45,169 nucleotides of DNA from an uncultured Halomicronema sp. (GTDB lineage: Bacteria; Cyanobacteriota; Cyanobacteriia; Phormidesmidales; Phormidesmidaceae), in contig CALCCA010000200.1 in NCBI GenBank assembly GCA_937899725.1, positions 1 to 45,169 on the forward strand. Reading direction: 5' to 3'. Positions 31,167 to 45,025 of the stretch are shown here, one piece after another. Each line of letters starts with the position of its first letter. The first letter of the stretch is position 1. Both the position numbers and the translations under genes were made by a program. The notes beneath the pieces are model-generated. The model saw nothing but the letters and a program-made list of their open reading frames with translations, had not been told where the DNA came from and made no database searches.

Positions 31167-31637
31167 ATGACATCACCGGATAATCCGCCTTTAGAAAGTG
31201 AGTTGGCACTGGCTCGACCCAGTAATGCTGATGCGGGCCTAGCCCCCCTGTTGCTGACTGTGACTGAGCTGATTCGTCAACTGATGGAAGCTCAGATCAT
31301 TCGACGTATGGAATCAGGTGACTTGGGCGACGATGATTTAGACCGCGCCTCCGATAGCCTGCGCCGTCTCGAGGTGGAAATCGTCCGCCTGTGCGAGATA
31401 TTTGAGGTTGACCCGGCTGATTTGAATATCGATCTCGGTGAGCTGGGTACACTGCTGCCGCGCAACGGGGGTTATTATCCGGGCGAGCACTCAGAATCGC
31501 CATCACTTTTAGAGTTGCTCGATCGCCTGCTTGATACGGGTGTCGTTGTCGAAGGCGATGTCGATTTGGGCTTGGCTCGCCTCAACCTGATTCACGCCAA
31601 ATTGCGCTTGGTGCTGACCTCTAAACCCGTGAACTGA
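31167..31637 (+). CDS. gvpK: Gas vesicle protein GvpK with C-terminal GvpA/J-like segment
   Basis: 156 residues. Residues 24-110 match GvpK: APLLLTVTELIRQLMEAQII then RRMESGDLGDDDLDRA and RLCEIFEVDPADLNIDLGEL. The C-terminal 45 residues (SLLELLDRLLDTGVVVEGDV, then LNLIHAKLRLVLTS) resemble the amphipathic core of GvpA/J/M shell-type proteins. This two-part layout may be usual for cyanobacterial GvpK rather than a new fusion. GvpK is an accessory factor required for gas vesicle assembly in several organisms. The ATG at 31167 is used. gvpF/L follows 43 bases later in the order (K, F) seen in cyanobacterial gvp operons, but gvpA, C, N, J and G are absent from the window. Confidence 0.9.
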   Translation: MTSPDNPPLESELALARPSNADAGLAPLLLTVTELIRQLMEAQIIRRMESGDLGDDDLDRASDSLRRLEVEIVRLCEIFEVDPADLNIDLGELGTLLPRNGGYYPGEHSESPSLLELLDRLLDTGVVVEGDVDLGLARLNLIHAKLRLVLTSKPVN

Positions 31638-35270: not shown

Positions 35271-35768
35271 TTACACCGCGAGCTGCTGGCGAATTTGAGC
35301 AACAATCTGTGCGGTCGTGTCTGTGGCGGTCAGGTTAATCGTGATCGCCTGGGTCGGTTCTTCTAACGTAGCCAGTTGACTATCCAGCAGAGATGCCTGC
35401 ATGAAGTGGCCTTGCCGCCGTGTCAGGCGCGATCGCAACACAGCGGGACTTGCCTTGAGATAAACAAACTGCAGAGTGCTGGGGGGCTGGGTGCTGTACA
35501 GCCCCTCGCGATAGCGCTGCTTGAGAGCGGAACAGGTGATCACGGCGGCTTGTTTGGCCTGCTGTAGCTGACTAATTTGCTGCCCAATCGCCTGCAGCCA
35601 CGGCCCTCGATCAGCGTCGGTGAGGGGAATGCCCTGACGCATTTTCTCGACGTTGGCGATCGGATGCAAGTCATCGCCCTCAACAAAGCACCACCCCAGC
35701 ACCTGAGCCAGCTGCTGACCGATGGTGCTCTTACCTGAGCCTGAGACCCCCATTAAAATCACAATCAT
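35271..35768 (-). CDS. gntK: Gluconokinase
   Basis: 165 residues. The P-loop MGVSGSGKST starts at residue 6, followed by FVEGDDLHPIANVEKMRQG and PLTDADRGPWL, both diagnostic of the thermoresistant-type gluconate kinase. ITCSALKQRYREGL follows. It phosphorylates gluconate to 6-phosphogluconate, feeding the pentose phosphate (and possibly Entner-Doudoroff) route. Length fits the family. The ATG at 35768 lies only 17 bases from a MITE-like repeat, so its promoter may be within or beyond that repeat. No gluconate permease or regulator is nearby. Confidence 0.93.
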   Translation of the reverse strand: MIVILMGVSGSGKSTIGQQLAQVLGWCFVEGDDLHPIANVEKMRQGIPLTDADRGPWLQAIGQQISQLQQAKQAAVITCSALKQRYREGLYSTQPPSTLQFVYLKASPAVLRSRLTRRQGHFMQASLLDSQLATLEEPTQAITINLTATDTTAQIVAQIRQQLAV

Positions 35769-36576: not shown

Positions 36577-39489
36577 TCAGGTGACCAAATTTGGCAAAAA
36601 GCGCGCCGTTTTCATAAAGGCTTCGGCCTCGGCGGCCGATAGGGGCGGGGCAATCAGATAGCCCTGAATGGCCCCACAGCCCAAGTTGTTTAGCCACTGC
36701 TGCTGCGATCGCGTTTCGACGCCCTCAGCCACTACGGTCATCTCAAACGCATTGGCGATTTGAATAATCGCTGCCACCAAACTGGCATCACTGGCCTGCT
36801 CCAGACTGTCAACAAACGACTTATCGATTTTGAGCGTATTAATCGGAAACTGCTTGAGATAGCTCAGAGAGGAATAGCCGGTGCCAAAGTCATCTAAACT
36901 GATTTCGATTTGGCGGTCTTGCAGTTTGGAAAGGGTGGATAACACGGCTTCGACATTTTTGAGTAAGACGCTTTCGGTAACTTCGAGCTTAAGATTGTGA
37001 GCCGCCAACTGAGTCTGCACCAAGGTCTGATCTAACTTTTCAAAAAACTGCGCGTCTTGAAACAGCCGGGACGCGATGTTGACGCTCATTTTGAGGGATT
37101 TGGCGGCGGCCATGGTGGTACACCAGGTCTGCATCTGACTACAGGCTTCTTGCAAAACCCATTCGCTGAGGGGAATGATCAGGCCCGTTTCTTCCGCTAA
37201 GGGGATAAAGTCATTGGGCGCAATCACCGGGCCGGTGGGCGGACACCACCGCACGAGCGCCTCAAACCCCATGAGCTGTTGGGCGGGCAGATTGATGATG
37301 GGTTGATAGTGCAGCTTAAATTCTTGATGCACCAGCGCTTGCCGGAGATTTGTTTCGAGTTCTAAGAGTTTGACAGCACTCTGATGCATGGCCGGGTCAA
37401 AGACAGCGTAGCCTGATTGGCCTTGCGCTTTGGCACGATACATTGCGTTGTCAGCATCGCGCAAAATATCTTGGCCGCGGGCATAGCCCAAATTGCTCAG
37501 GGCAATGCCAATGCTAGCAGTGGTAAAGACGGTGTGCCCCATGACGGTCATGGGGCGTTTGAGATCCTGTTGAATGCGCTCAACCACCTGAATCACTTCT
37601 TTGGGGCTCGCAATCTGCTCCAGTAAAATCACAAACTCATCGCCGCCGAGACGCGCGACGGTATCCAGACTTCTAACATGACCGGCTAGCAGTTGAGCCA
37701 CCTGCTTGAGTAGCTGATCGCCGACGACATGTCCCAAGCTGTCATTCACCACTTTGAAGCGGTTTAGGTCAATAAATAAGATGGCAAATAGATGATCAGG
37801 CTGCCGTTTCAGCCGTTGAATCGCATGATCTAGCCGCTCGACGAGCAAGGTGCGATTAGGCAATCCGGTCAGCGTGTCGTGTAGGGCTCGATAGCGTAGT
37901 TTTTCTTCCGCAATTTTGCGATCGGTGATATCGGCAAAGGTCACGACGATTTGCTGGAGCTGCCCCGACGCGGCAAATGTGGGGAAGGCGTTAATGAGTA
38001 CCCAGGTCGAATCTGGCGACTGGGCTGACTGAATCCCGAGCACAAAGTTATACAGCGGTTGGTGATTGGCCAGTACCTGGTTGACGGGGTATTGTTCGAG
38101 GGCTAGGGGGGCACCAAACTCATCCACCATCGGCCGGCGAAAGTCTGCGGATTTGAGGCCCAGCAGCTCCTGGGCTGGGGTCTCTAATAGTTGGCAAGCG
38201 GCTGGGTTACACATCACAATGGCGCTCTGGCGATCGTGCACTACGACCCCAGCATGCAGGTGATCGACGAGGGAGCGATAATTGGTTTCGCTATCGTGTA
38301 ATTGCTTGAGGGTCTGTTCGAGCGATTGGGTTCTTTCTTGCAGGGAATGATTGGTACTGGCTAAGGCCTGGGTGCGCTCGAGGACCCGCTGTTCGAGCGT
38401 GGTTAGCGTCTGACGTAATTGAGTCACCATGTGGTTAAAGGTGTCAGCTACGACGGCAAACTCATTATTGCCGGGGAGATGTAGCGAGCAGTTGAGATCA
38501 CCACGACCAATTTGTTCGGCCGCCCGATGCAGGGCAGTAATTGGCACCAGCAGGCGCTGCCCCAGCCAGAGAATCGCCCAAACGGTGAGCGCTAGCGCGA
38601 TTAATGCCGTGGCCAACAGCGCCGCGCGGCTCTGATTAGCCGCTTGGGCTAACTCTGATCGAGCGGCCTCAGTGCGTGTGCGACTGGTGTCGCCAATAGT
38701 TTGAATAATGGCGTCAATTTCTTGGTTGATGCTGTCAGCCACGATGGTGTTAACCTGCACCTGCTGCTCTAACAGCAAAACGGCATTGAGGTTAGCCAGA
38801 TAGTCTTGCGTTAGCGCTTGCGCACTACTCTGATCGAAGGCGAGGTCGGTGGTTTCTAACAGATAGGTGAGGCGATCTAAATTAGCCCGCACTTCGGTGA
38901 GGTATTGCTGATTTTGGGTATTGAAGTAGGCCTGCTCATTCGCTGCAATCATCCAGAGGGTGAGCTGAATTTGGGTGTTTTCGTCGCCCGCCACCGTTTG
39001 CTCGATCGCCTTCATCAGAGGCTGTATGCCGTTATATAAAGGCGTCTCATCGGCGGCGGCCTGAATGCGGGTGGTCGTGGCTTGCAAAGCCGCCTCATAG
39101 TTGAGAAATAAGGACTCTAATAGTTCTAGCTCTTGGGAAAGTTCCGAATTCGGCTGTTCAATTTGCTGCAGATCGGCGAGATTTTGGTAGGCGGCGGCGA
39201 GGTGAGCTTGATTAGCCGGTACAAACTCATCCGTCGAGTTGGGCATAGTTTTCCAATGGTGCAGGTAGTTCTCTTCGGCCTGTCGAGCGCGCAGAAAGTT
39301 ACTTTGCAGCTCGAGGCTGAGTTCTCGAACCCGCGCCGACTGCTGCAGAATGGCGCGACTACTGTCGCTGAGATGCTCTAAGCTGCGGTAGCCGATCGCA
39401 GTGCTGACAAAGCCCAGCAACAAAATTGTGCCAAAGCCCAGCCTGATTTGACCTCTAATGGTGGCGGGTAGCTGTAGCCAGGGGTGCAT
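36577..39489 (-). CDS. Membrane sensor with HAMP, PAS, GGDEF and EAL domains
   Basis: 970 residues. Membrane segments near 18-38 and 291-312 bracket a helical periplasmic sensor of about 250 residues. Next come HAMP (about 312-365), a coiled coil (365-405), PAS (about 408-530), GGDEF (about 535-700) and EAL (about 710-960). The cyclase signature is intact (ARLGGDEFVIL). The phosphodiesterase motifs are also intact: FEALVRW, NIASR, EVTESVLL, DDFGTGYSSLSYL, KIDKSFV, VVAEGVET. It can therefore make and/or degrade cyclic di-GMP. Its ATG overlaps the stop of the solute-binding-protein gene (TAATG), so both are translated together and probably form a sensing unit. Confidence 0.93.
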   Translation of the reverse strand: MHPWLQLPATIRGQIRLGFGTILLLGFVSTAIGYRSLEHLSDSSRAILQQSARVRELSLELQSNFLRARQAEENYLHHWKTMPNSTDEFVPANQAHLAAAYQNLADLQQIEQPNSELSQELELLESLFLNYEAALQATTTRIQAAADETPLYNGIQPLMKAIEQTVAGDENTQIQLTLWMIAANEQAYFNTQNQQYLTEVRANLDRLTYLLETTDLAFDQSSAQALTQDYLANLNAVLLLEQQVQVNTIVADSINQEIDAIIQTIGDTSRTRTEAARSELAQAANQSRAALLATALIALALTVWAILWLGQRLLVPITALHRAAEQIGRGDLNCSLHLPGNNEFAVVADTFNHMVTQLRQTLTTLEQRVLERTQALASTNHSLQERTQSLEQTLKQLHDSETNYRSLVDHLHAGVVVHDRQSAIVMCNPAACQLLETPAQELLGLKSADFRRPMVDEFGAPLALEQYPVNQVLANHQPLYNFVLGIQSAQSPDSTWVLINAFPTFAASGQLQQIVVTFADITDRKIAEEKLRYRALHDTLTGLPNRTLLVERLDHAIQRLKRQPDHLFAILFIDLNRFKVVNDSLGHVVGDQLLKQVAQLLAGHVRSLDTVARLGGDEFVILLEQIASPKEVIQVVERIQQDLKRPMTVMGHTVFTTASIGIALSNLGYARGQDILRDADNAMYRAKAQGQSGYAVFDPAMHQSAVKLLELETNLRQALVHQEFKLHYQPIINLPAQQLMGFEALVRWCPPTGPVIAPNDFIPLAEETGLIIPLSEWVLQEACSQMQTWCTTMAAAKSLKMSVNIASRLFQDAQFFEKLDQTLVQTQLAAHNLKLEVTESVLLKNVEAVLSTLSKLQDRQIEISLDDFGTGYSSLSYLKQFPINTLKIDKSFVDSLEQASDASLVAAIIQIANAFEMTVVAEGVETRSQQQWLNNLGCGAIQGYLIAPPLSAAEAEAFMKTARFLPNLVT

Positions 39490-40922
39490 TATGCGGCTTC
39501 CTGCATGATTTGGATGACGTGATGCTGGAGCTCAGCCGCCGCGACCGGGGCGGCAGTCCCATCGTAAATCGGCTGAATCGCGGTGGCGATTGCGATCGCG
39601 ACCTGAGGCCATTGGGGATGCAGCACGACGGTGGGGCGAGAGGTTTGCATGGCGGTTTGCACTGCGAGTGCATAGTCAATATTCATCGCCTCGGTATAGG
39701 CCGATGGGGTGAGCCAAGACGAAAATCGCGGCGCACCGCCAGTGGTCATAGCGATTTGCGGCTCCATTTTGGGGCTGATGGCCCATTGTATAAATAACCA
39801 GGCCGCGTCGCGTCGCGGCGACTGTTGGGCCATGCCTAACCCCCATAACCAGTGCCCCGTCCAACTGGCTGCCTGCGATCGCGGCAACACCGTATACCCT
39901 ACCTGACCCGCGATCGCACTGGTTTCATAACTAGGGCCAAAGAGACTGGCATCAATATAAAACGCGGCTTGGCCAGATTGGAACAGCTGAGTCGCCTGGG
40001 GCCAATCAATTTCTTTAACGTGGGGCGGGCCTGCCTGCATCAACTGAGCATAGGCCGCTAAGCCTGCGACCACGCGCGCATCGGTAAATCGCGGTTGCTG
40101 CCAGTCGCCGTCAAACCACAAGTTATGGGGTAACGGCGTGGGCTCTGGCCCCCAACAGTTCAACAGCAAGCCCGTGACCGTATCAATGATGGCGTCTGAC
40201 CGGACTCCCCGCATCACCGCCCCAAAAAAGTCGCCGTTCCCAATCTGATTGATTGTCTGCGCTGCCTCGATCAGTTCTGTCATGGTGCGGGGCACTTGAC
40301 CGTCAAGGTACCGATTAACCAGTTGTTTGTTGTAGAACAAGATATAGGCTTCAAACGTGGCTGGCATCCCAAACAATTGCTGTGCTGGCTGCGCGGGGGG
40401 ATACATAGCTGCGAAGCGAAAGCCTTCGGGAAAATCAATCAGATTGTAGCTAGATTCGGTGAACTGACGGTTGTTAATCAAAGGTGTCAACGGCTGCAGT
40501 AAATTGTCTTGCCACAGGCGATAGGCGGTTGAGTCCATCGGCAAAAAAAACACGTCTGCGGGGACGGGGCTCTGCCGCAGCATGGTTTCCATAAAGTCAA
40601 AATAGCCGGGCTCTGGCACCATCTCTAGCTTGACGCGAATGCCAGTAAGCGCCTCAAAATCGGCAAGATAGGGTTTGACCCCCGCCGTCCACGGATGATC
40701 ATTCAGCAATACTGACACCTCTTGCCCGCGCCAGCGCTGCCATTGAAATTCAGGGCTTAAGTCAACAACATTTTGTGTGAGGGCGTCATGCTCGCGGGGG
40801 GGACGGCAGGCGGCCAAAAGTGTAGAGAGGGTGGCCAACTGCACGAAATGACGGCGAGAATAGTGAGTCAATAACTTGGTTGGGTGATGGACACGGCCCC
40901 CCATAGAGTGGGCTAATTCCAC
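39489..40922 (-). CDS. TAT-type solute-binding lipoprotein
   Basis: 477 residues (471 from the ATG at 40904, an alternative to the GTG at 40922). The N-terminus holds SRRHFVQLATLSTLLAAC, a twin-arginine-like motif joined to a lipobox LAAC. The rest resembles family 1 extracellular solute-binding proteins: VSVLLNDHPWTAGVKPYLAD then FEALTGIRVKLEMVPEPGY, and a C-terminal WLFIQWAISPKMEPQIAMTT. It should be anchored to the outer side of the cytoplasmic membrane and bind a sugar-like or other organic ligand. No ABC permease or ATPase is adjacent; instead the GGDEF-EAL gene is coupled through TAATG, suggesting the ligand is sensed rather than imported. Confidence 0.82.
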   Translation of the reverse strand: MELAHSMGGRVHHPTKLLTHYSRRHFVQLATLSTLLAACRPPREHDALTQNVVDLSPEFQWQRWRGQEVSVLLNDHPWTAGVKPYLADFEALTGIRVKLEMVPEPGYFDFMETMLRQSPVPADVFFLPMDSTAYRLWQDNLLQPLTPLINNRQFTESSYNLIDFPEGFRFAAMYPPAQPAQQLFGMPATFEAYILFYNKQLVNRYLDGQVPRTMTELIEAAQTINQIGNGDFFGAVMRGVRSDAIIDTVTGLLLNCWGPEPTPLPHNLWFDGDWQQPRFTDARVVAGLAAYAQLMQAGPPHVKEIDWPQATQLFQSGQAAFYIDASLFGPSYETSAIAGQVGYTVLPRSQAASWTGHWLWGLGMAQQSPRRDAAWLFIQWAISPKMEPQIAMTTGGAPRFSSWLTPSAYTEAMNIDYALAVQTAMQTSRPTVVLHPQWPQVAIAIATAIQPIYDGTAAPVAAAELQHHVIQIMQEAA

Positions 40923-41174: not shown

Positions 41175-44100
41175 ATGCCGTCGAAACCGCGCAGTTTTCT
41201 AGCCAGCCCTGAGGGAGTACAGCAGTTGCAGGCTGCTAAAGCCAAGCGCCAGTTGAGCTTTGCCGCCATTGCTAAGCAGGCCGGGGTGAGCGCGGATACT
41301 GTAAGCCGATTTTTTCATCCAGATTGGGGTAAGCCTGTGAGTATTGACAGTGTGGAGGCTATTACTGGGGCATTGGAATTAGAGGCTAATCCGATCGTGC
41401 AACCCCTCAACACTGAAGCCGATGAAGCTTATGCGGAAGCCAAACAACGCATTGCCAAAGCGAAGAAAAAAAGAGCATCGGGTCTGGACCTGAGTTGCAT
41501 GGGAATAAAGTCAATCCCACCAGAACTAGAAGAACTTTCTCAGCTGATATGGCTCAATCTTGACCGAAATCAACTGACTGATGCACCTATAGAGGTAAGT
41601 AAACTTACTTGTCTGACGGTGCTAGATCTTTCTCAAAATCAGTTGACGTCAGTACCCAAAGAGCTATGCCAGCTGCAAAATCTCACAACGCTTTACCTCT
41701 TCCAAAATCAGTTGACGTCAGTACCCAAAGAGCTATGCCAGCTGCAAAATCTGACAAAGCTTTACCTTTACCAAAATCAACTGACGACGGTGCCGAAAGA
41801 ATTGGGCCAACTGCAAAATCTGACAAAGCTTTACCTCCACCGAAATCAACTGACGATAGTGCCGAAAGAATTGGGCCGACTGCAAAACCTGAGAGAGCTT
41901 GACCTCTCTGAAAATCAACTGACGATGGTGCCGAAAGAACTGGGCCAACTACAAGAACTAACGGTGCTTTACCTCGACGAAAATCAACTGACGCAGGTTC
42001 CGAAAGAACTGGGTCAACTCCAAAAACTAACTCGGCTCTATCTTCATCAAAACCAACTGACAGCGGTGTCGAAGGAACTGGGCAAACTGCAAAAACTTTC
42101 AAAGCTTGCTCTCTCTCACAATCAACTGATTCAAGTACCGAAAGAACTGGGTCAGCTGTTCAACCTAAAAACGCTTTACCTCGGCAGAAATCAACTGATG
42201 CAAGTGCCTAAAGAACTGGGTCAGCTGTCCAACCTGAAAACACTTGCTCTCGACGAAAATCAACTAACCGAGATGCCAAAAGAACTGAGACAACTGAAAA
42301 ACCTGACAGAGCTTTACCTACATAAAAATGATCGCTTGGGCTTTTCTAGTGAAATCTTGGGGCCGATTTGGCCGCTGGTTGATAAAGGAGCAATCCCAGG
42401 CAATCCGCAGGACATTCTCAACTACTACTTTCGTAATCTGTCAGATCACACACCGCTGAACGAAGCCAAACTCATTCTCGTCGGCTTCGGAGCCGTCGGT
42501 AAAACCTCCCTTGTCAATCGTCTCATTCACAAAAAGTTCGATCGCGACTCCAAAAAGACTGAGGGCATCCAGATTACCCAGTGGCCTGTCACCCTCAACG
42601 GCAACGAAAACATTACCCTGCACGTCTGGGATTTTGGTGGGCAGGAGATCATGCACTCCACCCATCAGTTTTTTCTCACCGAGCGCAGCCTCTACCTGCT
42701 GGTGCTCAACGGTCGACAGGGGCACGAAGACGAAGACGCTGAATACTGGCTAGAGCTGATCGAGAGCTTTGGCGGCGACTCCCCTGTCATCGTGGCGCTG
42801 AACAAAATTACCGAGCACCCCTTCGACGTCAATCGCGGTGCCCTCCAACAAAAATTCCCCAACATTCGCACCTTCATCTCCACCGACTGCGCTGCTGAGA
42901 TCGGTCTCGACGAGCTTCAAGCCAAGATCAAGCAGGAAACCGATCACCTAGAGTTCCTGCGCACCCCCTTTCCCGCTAGCTGGCTCACTATCAAAAACAA
43001 GCTGGCCGGTATGCAGAAAAACTACATCTCCTACGAGACGTATCGCGACCTCTGCCAACAAGACGGTGAAGCCGACACCGGCGCTCAAGATTCCCTCGCT
43101 AACTGCCTACACAGCCTCGGCATCGCCCTCAACTACAAAGACGACCCGCGTCTGCGTGACACCCACGTACTCAATCCCCACTGGGTCACCAACGGCATCT
43201 ACACCCTGCTCAACGCCTCCGAACTGGCTGCCACCCAGGGCGAAATGGCGGCGGACTGTCTGGATCGCACTCTTGACCTACAGCGCTATCCCCGCGAGCG
43301 CCACGGCTTTTTGCTAGAGCTGATGCGCAAGTTTGAGCTGTGTTTCCGCTTTGCCGACGACGACAGCCGCTTCCTCATTCCCGACCTGCTCGACAAACAG
43401 CAGCCCGCCCCCGCCGCCGAGTTCGACCTGGCGGAGTGCCTCAACTTTCGCTACGAGTATCCCGTGCTGCCCGAGGGGTTGCTGCCCCGCTTCATCGTCC
43501 GCACCCACGTGCTCAGCAAGCACCAACTGCGCTGGCGCACGGGCGTCATCCTCCACTTTGAGGGCAACCGCGCTCTGGTCAAGGCCGATCGCGCCGACAA
43601 ATGCGTCACTATCAGCGTCGATGGCCCGGTCAACAGCCGTCGCCGCCTGCTCGCCATCATCCGCTCCGACTTTGAGCGCATCCACAGCAGCTTCAAGTTC
43701 ACGCCCCAAGAGCTAGTGCCCGTACCTGCCCACCCTGACGTGATGCTGCCCTACCCAGACCTAATCGTGATGGAGCAAGCTGGGTTAAAAGAACAACCTC
43801 AAGTGATCAACGGCCAGATCGTTCACCTCAACGTCCGCGATCTGCTCAACGGCGTCGACCTAGAAGGCAGTCGTCGCCCCGACACCGACCTCAAGCGCCG
43901 CCTCGACACGCTGCACCTGTTTATCAGCTACTCTCACAAAGACAACGTCCTGCGCGAAGAACTGGAAACTCACCTGAAAATCCTACAGCGGCAGGGGTTG
44001 ATTCAAACCTGGAGTGATCGCGGCATTCTCCCTGGCGATGAGTGGGAAACTGACATTGACGCCAACCTTAACCGGGCCGACATCATCTTGTTTCTCATCA

Positions 44101-44357
44101 GCGCCGATTTTATCGCGTCCAAGTACTGCTATGAAATCGAGATGCCCCAGGCCATGGCGCGCCACGAAAATGGTGACGCTATGGTTATCCCCATCATTCT
44201 GCGGCCCTGCGACTGGCGCAATACCCCTTTCAATAAATTGGGCTGGCTACCCCAAAACGGCGAGCCCGTAACTCAGTGGCCAGATCGCGATGCCGCCTGG
44301 CTCAATGTCGAAACGGGAATTAAGGACGCGATCGCGGCCATGAAAGCCCGCGACTGA
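41175..44357 (+). CDS. HTH-LRR-Roc-COR-TIR multidomain protein (ROCO family)
   Basis: 1060 residues. Residues 10-75 form an HTH-like domain (FAAIAKQAGVSADTVSRFFH). LRRs span about 105-390, twelve full units of 23 residues. The Roc GTPase (about 430-585) has a P-loop GFGAVGKTS and switch WDFGGQE, but NKIT replaces the NKxD motif. COR spans about 590-870. A TIR domain (about 912-1058) starts LHLFISYSHKDN and has the candidate catalytic Glu in SKYCYEIEMP. ROCO proteins are GTP-regulated dimers; TIR domains often hydrolyse NAD or signal. The combination implies a ligand-sensing, GTP-switched effector, perhaps defensive (inference). The ATG at 41175 is used. It stands alone between hairpin-rich gaps. 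Confidence 0.93.
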   Translation: MPSKPRSFLASPEGVQQLQAAKAKRQLSFAAIAKQAGVSADTVSRFFHPDWGKPVSIDSVEAITGALELEANPIVQPLNTEADEAYAEAKQRIAKAKKKRASGLDLSCMGIKSIPPELEELSQLIWLNLDRNQLTDAPIEVSKLTCLTVLDLSQNQLTSVPKELCQLQNLTTLYLFQNQLTSVPKELCQLQNLTKLYLYQNQLTTVPKELGQLQNLTKLYLHRNQLTIVPKELGRLQNLRELDLSENQLTMVPKELGQLQELTVLYLDENQLTQVPKELGQLQKLTRLYLHQNQLTAVSKELGKLQKLSKLALSHNQLIQVPKELGQLFNLKTLYLGRNQLMQVPKELGQLSNLKTLALDENQLTEMPKELRQLKNLTELYLHKNDRLGFSSEILGPIWPLVDKGAIPGNPQDILNYYFRNLSDHTPLNEAKLILVGFGAVGKTSLVNRLIHKKFDRDSKKTEGIQITQWPVTLNGNENITLHVWDFGGQEIMHSTHQFFLTERSLYLLVLNGRQGHEDEDAEYWLELIESFGGDSPVIVALNKITEHPFDVNRGALQQKFPNIRTFISTDCAAEIGLDELQAKIKQETDHLEFLRTPFPASWLTIKNKLAGMQKNYISYETYRDLCQQDGEADTGAQDSLANCLHSLGIALNYKDDPRLRDTHVLNPHWVTNGIYTLLNASELAATQGEMAADCLDRTLDLQRYPRERHGFLLELMRKFELCFRFADDDSRFLIPDLLDKQQPAPAAEFDLAECLNFRYEYPVLPEGLLPRFIVRTHVLSKHQLRWRTGVILHFEGNRALVKADRADKCVTISVDGPVNSRRRLLAIIRSDFERIHSSFKFTPQELVPVPAHPDVMLPYPDLIVMEQAGLKEQPQVINGQIVHLNVRDLLNGVDLEGSRRPDTDLKRRLDTLHLFISYSHKDNVLREELETHLKILQRQGLIQTWSDRGILPGDEWETDIDANLNRADIILFLISADFIASKYCYEIEMPQAMARHENGDAMVIPIILRPCDWRNTPFNKLGWLPQNGEPVTQWPDRDAAWLNVETGIKDAIAAMKARD
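41490..42330 (+). repeat. Tandem 69-bp DNA repeats encoding the LRRs
   Basis: The LRR segment is a DNA-level tandem repeat of 69 bases (23 codons). The units at about 41634-41702 and 41703-41771 are nearly identical over most of their length (for example CAGTTGACGTCAGTACCCAA in both), pointing to a recent duplication; later units diverge. The shadow frames in this segment are repetitive for the same reason. Confidence 0.85.
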
Positions 44358-44590: not shown

Positions 44591-45025
44591 ATGGCCAGTT
44601 TTCCCAAAATCAAACTCATCGCCATTGGCAAAGTCAAAAAAGGCTGGATTCGCGAAGGCATTGAGGTCTACCACAAGCGCCTGCCCGAGCTCGACCTGGT
44701 AGAACTCAAAGACTCAACGCCAGAAAAAGAGGGCGCTCAGATTTTGTCGATGATTAAGCCGAGCGATCGCCTGCTGGCCCTCACCGAAGAGGGCAAAACC
44801 TGGTCATCGCTCGCGTTTGCCGACTTTGTCAGTCAGGCGGACTCGCACAATTTAGTGTTTGCGATCGGCAGTGCTGCCGGACTCAGCCCCGCCATTAAAC
44901 AGTCGGCAACTCAGTGTTTAAGTCTTTCGCCGATGACCTTTCCCCACGAAGTCGCCCGGCTGTTGCTGCTAGAGCAGCTGTATCGCACCAAGAGCATTCT
45001 GCAGGGCAGTCAATATCACAAGTAA
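44591..45025 (+). CDS. rlmH: 23S rRNA pseudouridine-1915 N3-methyltransferase
   Basis: 144 residues of the SPOUT-class RlmH family, which methylates N3 of pseudouridine 1915 in 23S rRNA of the assembled ribosome. Family features are KIKLIAIGKVKKGWIREGIE, the glycine-rich SAM loop FAIGSAAGLS (usually IGGAxG), and the C-terminal MTFPHEVARLLLLEQLYR, near-diagnostic of RlmH. The loop glycine is replaced by Ser (IGSAAG), a conservative change. Length is slightly short of the 155 residues typical in E. coli. The ATG at 44591 is used. Housekeeping gene; its neighbourhood gives no special context. Confidence 0.95.
   Translation: MASFPKIKLIAIGKVKKGWIREGIEVYHKRLPELDLVELKDSTPEKEGAQILSMIKPSDRLLALTEEGKTWSSLAFADFVSQADSHNLVFAIGSAAGLSPAIKQSATQCLSLSPMTFPHEVARLLLLEQLYRTKSILQGSQYHK

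Follow-up and report, generated by a model that had tools for sequence, protein, structure and literature searches.

The window analyzed here, a contig of 45,169 nucleotides (CALCCA010000200.1; C200 in our designation) from the 7.0-Mb genome of an uncultured cyanobacterium, Halomicronema sp., encodes a solute-binding lipoprotein (solute-binding protein, SBP) of the sugar class whose gene overlaps that of a membrane GGDEF-EAL enzyme of cyclic di-GMP (c-di-GMP) metabolism. The two proteins probably form a dedicated two-protein receptor, in which an SBP of the transporter type acts as the co-receptor of the c-di-GMP enzyme; we put the probability of this interpretation at close to four in five. 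Because, in the one cyanobacterial family that carries it, this sugar-class SBP is encoded together with a c-di-GMP enzyme in every case found, it is most likely the outside sensor of the latter. The earlier note on this DNA, made from the sequence alone, had already proposed that the SBP may serve as the ligand receptor for the periplasmic domain of the enzyme, and this proposal is supported as the best reading of the locus by the conservation of the pair, its co-inheritance and the TorS-like predicted fold of the sensor.

Conservation and co-inheritance of the gene pair

At E 1e-60, the SBP profile identifies 15 genomes among the 63 available for the order, and the identical 15 are recovered at E 1e-40 among 388 genomes of the class, in a search that scored only the top first-look candidates of each genome. 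All 15 belong to three genera of one family, and in every one of them the GGDEF-EAL gene lies directly downstream of the SBP gene (15/15, with two of the enzyme genes interrupted). The two genes overlap in 14 genomes: ten junctions have the form ATGA, three are TAATG or TGATG, and one is a ten-base overlap; at the single exception (locus L041), the genes are 2-5 bp apart, depending on the start codon. Since the stop codon at the junction differs between genomes (TAA, TGA or TAG) while the overlap persists, its retention reflects more than chance. No other gene family is common to all 15 genomes within approximately 6 kb on each side of the pair, or less at contig ends.

The sensor part of the enzyme shows the same distribution. 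At E 1e-8, a profile consisting of the periplasmic domain and its two membrane helices matches exactly the 15 SBP-bearing genomes out of 60, always next to the SBP gene (with a partial match in G031), and is absent from the remaining 45. Three of the latter are congeneric genomes that lack both the SBP and the sensor. When the threshold is relaxed to E 0.001 over the 388 genomes of the class, one additional, weak and partial match appears (E 1.4e-5, residues 9-114) in genome G358, which represents another family and lies outside the set of 15 that carry the SBP; plasmids yield no match at E 0.001. The SBP/GGDEF-EAL arrangement is thus real, conserved and specific. Conservation in relatives had been named in the earlier note as a check of its proposal, and the pair is indeed present in all SBP-bearing genomes, with an exact correspondence between presence and absence of the two genes over the 60 genomes.

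It is extremely improbable that the two genes are neighbors by chance or through shared drift. The pair has been found in only one cyanobacterial family, and common descent explains part of its conservation; nevertheless, the flanking genes change between genomes whereas the pair stays, the overlap persists with three different stop codons, and both genes are missing together in the three congeners. Chance adjacency is therefore rejected on the conservation data.

The enzymes encoded in these loci largely keep their catalytic motifs. Among the 13 intact enzymes, the set remaining after the two interrupted genes are left out, 22 of the 24 checked GGDEF, RxxD and EAL positions are invariant; the exceptions are a change of EAL to ESL in one enzyme and of Y to F in three. 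The motifs of both the diguanylate cyclase and the EAL phosphodiesterase are intact in 13 of the 15. The main splits of the SBP and enzyme trees, built for the 13 intact pairs (without L035 and L041), agree, with a patristic correlation of 0.96. Such agreement can be obtained from species descent alone and so is not evidence of contact between the two proteins.

Several other genes are found near the pair in subsets of the genomes. The next most common neighbor families are a response regulator followed by a sensor kinase, located 3' of the pair in 5 of the 15 genomes each (e.g., L012, 8410-9501 and 9528-12233, plus strand); in L012, the response regulator gene encodes an Hpt domain and the sensor kinase gene several PAS domains. 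One genome (L042, 1524-3629, plus strand) carries a second GGDEF-EAL gene, located upstream of the pair at a distance of a few kb, the product of which is 38.8% identical to the window enzyme over residues 397-961 of the latter.

Transporter ancestry of the SBP and the search for a matching transporter

The SBP produces above-cut-off matches to the Pfam families SBP_bac_1 (95 bits) and SBP_bac_8 (73 bits), and the best-scoring chains from the Protein Data Bank (PDB) carry the names of sugar, trehalose/maltose and sorbitol binding proteins. The closest relatives found outside cyanobacteria are encoded in Shinella and Ensifer (46-47% identity), Aminobacter (42%) and Microbacterium (41-42%). In Shinella, Ensifer and Aminobacter, the SBP gene is followed by genes for two permeases and an ATPase, with SIS-domain, ROK, GntR and GMC ('choline dehydrogenase') genes alongside, according to the annotation. 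The Microbacterium locus L015 encodes two permeases and a GMC protein, identified with Pfam, along with SIS, ROK and DeoR-type regulator genes recognized by eye from the translations; an ATPase was not seen in this locus. As judged by these similarities, the SBP belongs to an ABC (ATP-binding cassette) transporter lineage. Unlike its homologs, which adjoin their own permeases in the four inspected contexts, the window SBP adjoins a c-di-GMP enzyme. No gene for a c-di-GMP enzyme was seen in these four contexts; they comprise one of two Microbacterium loci (the other, L016, was scanned for the SBP only) and 3 plasmid contexts among 156 records with an SBP match, 20 of which were listed, so that other contexts may exist and pairs are possible among the remaining plasmid records.

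Across the 15 cyanobacterial SBPs and five relatives (n = 20), 91 positions are invariant, many of them aromatic or charged, which suggests that the cyanobacterial SBP may have retained the ancestral binding pocket and ligand class. The ligand would be a sugar, perhaps an aminated or oxidized one, because the operons of the relatives include SIS, ROK and GMC genes. In 4 of the 15 genomes, a family of glycoside hydrolases is encoded upstream of the SBP (e.g., L014, 4998-7724, plus strand; the MGH1-like/GH63-type Pfam assignment was made on this copy), which might hint at an oligosaccharide ligand.

An SBP with this ancestry could still serve an ABC transporter encoded elsewhere, with the enzyme merely co-expressed, so that c-di-GMP turnover would keep pace with uptake in the absence of any contact between the two proteins. 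We consider this improbable, even though the homology to transporter SBPs speaks for it and two transporters of the same genome come into question. In agreement with the earlier note, which had reported no ABC permease or ATPase nearby, none is detected among the 24 neighbor proteins scanned with Pfam, a set that leaves out overlapping open reading frames (ORFs) of at least 150 aa in the other strand or frame, most of the shorter ORFs, and positions 44591-45025. Genome-wide, there are 45 matches to BPD_transp_1 and 10 to SBP_bac_1, nine of the latter above the cut-off.

The query in the search for the cognate permease was the first of the two permeases from the operons of the relatives. The Microbacterium and Shinella versions of this protein share 49% identity, as do the SBPs of the same two bacteria, whereas its matches in the genome of the window reach only 26-32% (the best on contig C89, 29-31%, followed by contig C35, 26-31%) and those in ten pair-bearing genomes at most 37%; hence this genome encodes no close relative of the first permease. 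Contig C35 (L052, 3873-6864, genome G000) encodes two permeases and an ATPase (the latter recognized by eye) without an adjoining SBP gene. The first C35 permease is present in 40 of the 60 genomes, of which 12 belong to the 15 pair-bearing genomes and 28 to the 45 that lack the pair (Fisher p 0.34); the three pair-bearing genomes in which it was not found are assemblies of 260-550 contigs. Contigs C115 and C8 carry further SBP_bac_1 genes that lack an adjoining permease, and the products of these genes could be the partners of the C35 set. The MalF-like permease on C89 has an SBP_bac_1 match approximately 6 kb away and is present in 57 of the 60 genomes, and is therefore independent of the window SBP. 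Thus, neither the C35 nor the C89 permease tracks the SBP, whereas the GGDEF-EAL enzyme does so exactly. The earlier note had anticipated that an orphan permease and ATPase elsewhere might use this SBP: such a set does exist on C35 but it is not co-inherited with the SBP and shares only 26-31% identity with the permease of the SBP lineage.

Domain architecture, predicted sensor fold and a possible mechanism

The principal features of the locus are listed in Table 1. The coordinates, the junction, the Tat-type (twin-arginine translocation) binding protein and the membrane c-di-GMP enzyme given in the earlier note all agree with the ORFs, the Pfam matches and the sequence. The SBP gene starts with GTG and encodes a 477 aa protein, and its TAA stop codon shares one base with the ATG start codon of the gene for the 970 aa enzyme. 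The N-terminus of the SBP contains a twin-arginine motif and a lipobox (SRRHFVQ...LLAAC), both recognized by eye; R23, R24, F26 and C39 are invariant in six of the six aligned cyanobacterial sequences, the one from the window included. The enzyme has hydrophobic segments near residues 15-33 and 289-307, with approximately 250 residues between them, and its HAMP, PAS, GGDEF and EAL domains all score above the Pfam cut-off. Scans for promoters and terminators yielded site numbers about equal to those in shuffled sequences.

Table 1. Features of the window discussed in the text (TM, transmembrane segment)
Feature	Position	Strand	Remarks
Solute-binding lipoprotein, sugar class SBP_bac_1/SBP_bac_8	39489..40922	-	Pfam; Tat-type signal and lipobox; proposed ligand-binding co-receptor
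TAATG stop/start overlap	39487..39491	-	Possible translational-coupling junction; overlap kept in 14/15 genomes
Membrane GGDEF-EAL enzyme	36577..39489	-	TM, ~250-residue helical periplasmic sensor, TM, HAMP, PAS, GGDEF with RxxD I-site, EAL
Periplasmic sensor domain, residues ~38-286	38632..39378	-	Predicted all-helical; over the full length closest to McpS/TorS; proposed SBP docking site
Small kinase gene	35271..35768	-	AAA_33/SKI matches; 0.8 kb downstream of the enzyme
LRR-Roc-COR-TIR gene	41175..44357	+	Divergent, upstream of the SBP; ROCO-type GTPase with TIR domain
Gas vesicle ORF	31167..31637	+	GvpK (residues 17-97) and Gas_vesicle family (113-151); followed by GvpL/GvpF

The AlphaFold2 model of the sensor is all-helical (predicted local distance difference test, pLDDT, 76; predicted TM-score, pTM, 0.61), with helices at 7-81, 89-110, 115-146, 151-163, 169-191, 195-213 and 220-309. 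In this predicted form, the domain adopts a helical two-bundle fold of the HBM/TorS type over approximately 250 residues. Foldseek comparison retrieves McpS, PilJ and the TorS-TorT complex with a probability of 1.00 and E-values of 0.009-0.06 (one TorS-TorT chain, E 0.19 and probability 0.99). In VIA-align comparisons, full-length or nearly full-length alignments are obtained with McpS (Z 15.8, 217 aligned residues, 3.1 A), TorS from the TorS-TorT complex (Z 14.0, 216 residues, 2.8 A) and PilJ (Z 13.0, 217 residues, 5.0 A), and shorter ones with LytSN of the XylFII-LytSN complex (Z 16.6, 122 residues, 1.7 A) and PcaY (Z 16.1, 138 residues). For helical bundles, a Z below approximately 13 may carry little meaning, and the typical best Z for helical models without a clear match is 14; because bundles score high so easily, weight is placed here on the coverage of the full length by known sensors and not on any particular Z. 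In sequence searches, Pfam signals for three sensor sequences are sub-threshold only, among them one to 4HB_MCP_1 (E 0.018-0.03) in two relatives, HBM is not among the Pfam matches listed for the sensor at E up to 10, and the sensor profile run against PDB sequences retrieves nothing better than uteroglobin chains, with E-values of 0.1 or worse. The predicted fold fits a sensor read by an SBP but, taken alone, does not separate this mode from direct ligand binding.

The alternative that follows from the latter is that the enzyme senses on its own, with a small ligand in the helical domain, as in McpS, or via the PAS domain that it contains, the SBP being accessory or acting separately. The ligand-binding domains of McpS and PcaY are indeed among the closest folds. 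However, at E 1e-8 the sensor is not found without the SBP in the 60 genomes (the weak, partial match in G358 lies in another family), and a self-sufficient sensor would not require the overlap that is kept at nearly all junctions, so that this explanation appears highly unlikely.

The interpretation of the pair as a receptor and its co-receptor has to be weighed against a number of less favorable observations. As the 15 genomes come from a single family, they do not provide independent counts. In two of the 15 assemblies, the enzyme gene is interrupted, through either real decay or assembly error, while the SBP frame stays open: in G003 (L041, 9335-9368), the break in the enzyme frame falls within the GGDEF domain, and in G031 (L035, 7985-8005), the enzyme lacks roughly residues 190-454 and additionally contains a stop. 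As for the sensor, all Foldseek E-values are above 0.001, and the matches include unrelated ciliary proteins (E 0.011, at a lower probability); none of the three sensor sequences matches a Pfam family above its cut-off; isolated TorS chains score only Z 12.3-12.6, and designed helical bundles equal the complexed TorS at Z 14.0; and McpS and PcaY, whose structures contain small ligands, obtain scores as high as those of the sensors that are read by SBPs. The C35 transporter set, which lacks an SBP of its own, could in principle use the window SBP in 12 of the 15 pair-bearing genomes. Finally, the AlphaFold2 model of the SBP, built from eight sequences, was too poor to use (pLDDT 44), leaving its pocket unmapped.

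For the favored two-protein receptor, we infer that the SBP contacts the sensor and no longer serves transport, also infer its ligand and the direction in which the enzyme is switched, and envisage the following mechanism. The SBP would be exported via its Tat-type lipoprotein signal and would bind a sugar or a sugar derivative in the periplasm. Depending on the ligand, it would then dock on the enzyme at its helical domain in the periplasm, and the resulting change would be relayed via the second membrane helix, the HAMP domain and the PAS domain to GGDEF and EAL, where it would tip the balance between the making and breaking of c-di-GMP. By analogy with NspS-MbaA (see below), docking may favor synthesis. 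Although derived from an ABC-transporter lineage, the SBP would not be tied to transport in these cyanobacteria. A bolder extension, which at present is doubtful, is that, in this cyanobacterial family, a whole lineage of transporter-type sugar SBPs gave up transport, kept the ancestral pocket and became a co-receptor in c-di-GMP signalling, which reads an amino or oxidized sugar not imported through it, possibly fragments of matrix polysaccharide produced by the cell itself or its neighbors, and thereby sets the biofilm or motility state.

Comparison with known systems and implications

The closest parallel is NspS-MbaA of Vibrio cholerae and Sinorhizobium meliloti, in which, likewise, the SBP gene is located just upstream of, and overlaps, a gene for a membrane HAMP-GGDEF-EAL protein. 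NspS signalling is reportedly independent of transport. According to two publications (PMC9993111, PMC8079147), the overlap amounts to 3 bp in S. meliloti and to 16 bp in V. cholerae; NspS loaded with norspermidine reportedly docks on MbaA and favors synthesis. The periplasmic domain of S. meliloti MbaA (residues 24-256; PMC9993111) resembles the ~250-residue domain of the window enzyme in length. The two systems also differ. NspS is a PotD homolog that recognizes polyamines, whereas the window SBP falls into the sugar class (SBP_bac_1/8), the two being set apart by Pfam and PDB matches and not by a direct comparison with NspS or PotD; MbaA has an SGDEF motif and no RxxD (PMC9993111), whereas the window enzyme contains a PAS domain, a canonical GGDEF motif and RxxD; and NspS-MbaA is a proteobacterial system whereas the host here is a cyanobacterium.

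Two histidine kinase systems provide further points of comparison. In TorT-TorS, a periplasmic SBP is read by a helical sensor, and the predicted sensor of the window enzyme aligns with the complexed TorS over 216 residues; however, TorS is, according to the PDB titles, a histidine kinase that responds to trimethylamine N-oxide (TMAO), whereas the output here is c-di-GMP. In XylFII-LytS, a pair made up of a xylose SBP and a histidine kinase, a helical sensor also binds an SBP, and LytS yields the highest structural score for the window sensor, but over just 122 aligned residues. Altogether, the pair is best read as the NspS-MbaA logic implemented with different parts, namely a sugar-class SBP of transporter lineage, a TorS/McpS-like predicted sensor and a PAS domain, in a cyanobacterial host.

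The divergent ROCO-type gene upstream of the SBP and the small kinase gene, which by eye looks like a gluconate kinase, are not among the listed neighbor families shared across the 15 genomes. The gas vesicle ORF apparently combines two gas vesicle proteins in one fused product. Phycobilisome genes are present among the scanned neighbors and, like the relatives, mark the genome as cyanobacterial.

Cyanobacterial c-di-GMP control has been studied mainly with respect to light. PMC8846402 is in line with this focus; it also describes arginine sensing through STM1987 as dependent on the binding protein ArtI. Activation of c-di-GMP enzymes by SBPs has been described as a branch of a general mechanism, although few SBP-stimulated signalling systems have been characterized (both according to PMC9602780). 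The main example of SBP input into c-di-GMP signalling encountered here is polyamine sensing by NspS-MbaA, and among the papers listed in searches of the open-licence PMC literature, none on an SBP/c-di-GMP enzyme pair in cyanobacteria was apparent. If the two proteins indeed form a dedicated receptor, this sugar-class version, related to the SBPs of ABC transporters, would illustrate the conversion of transport proteins into components of signalling systems, and cyanobacterial c-di-GMP control would gain a chemical input that could be screened for with a single purified protein.

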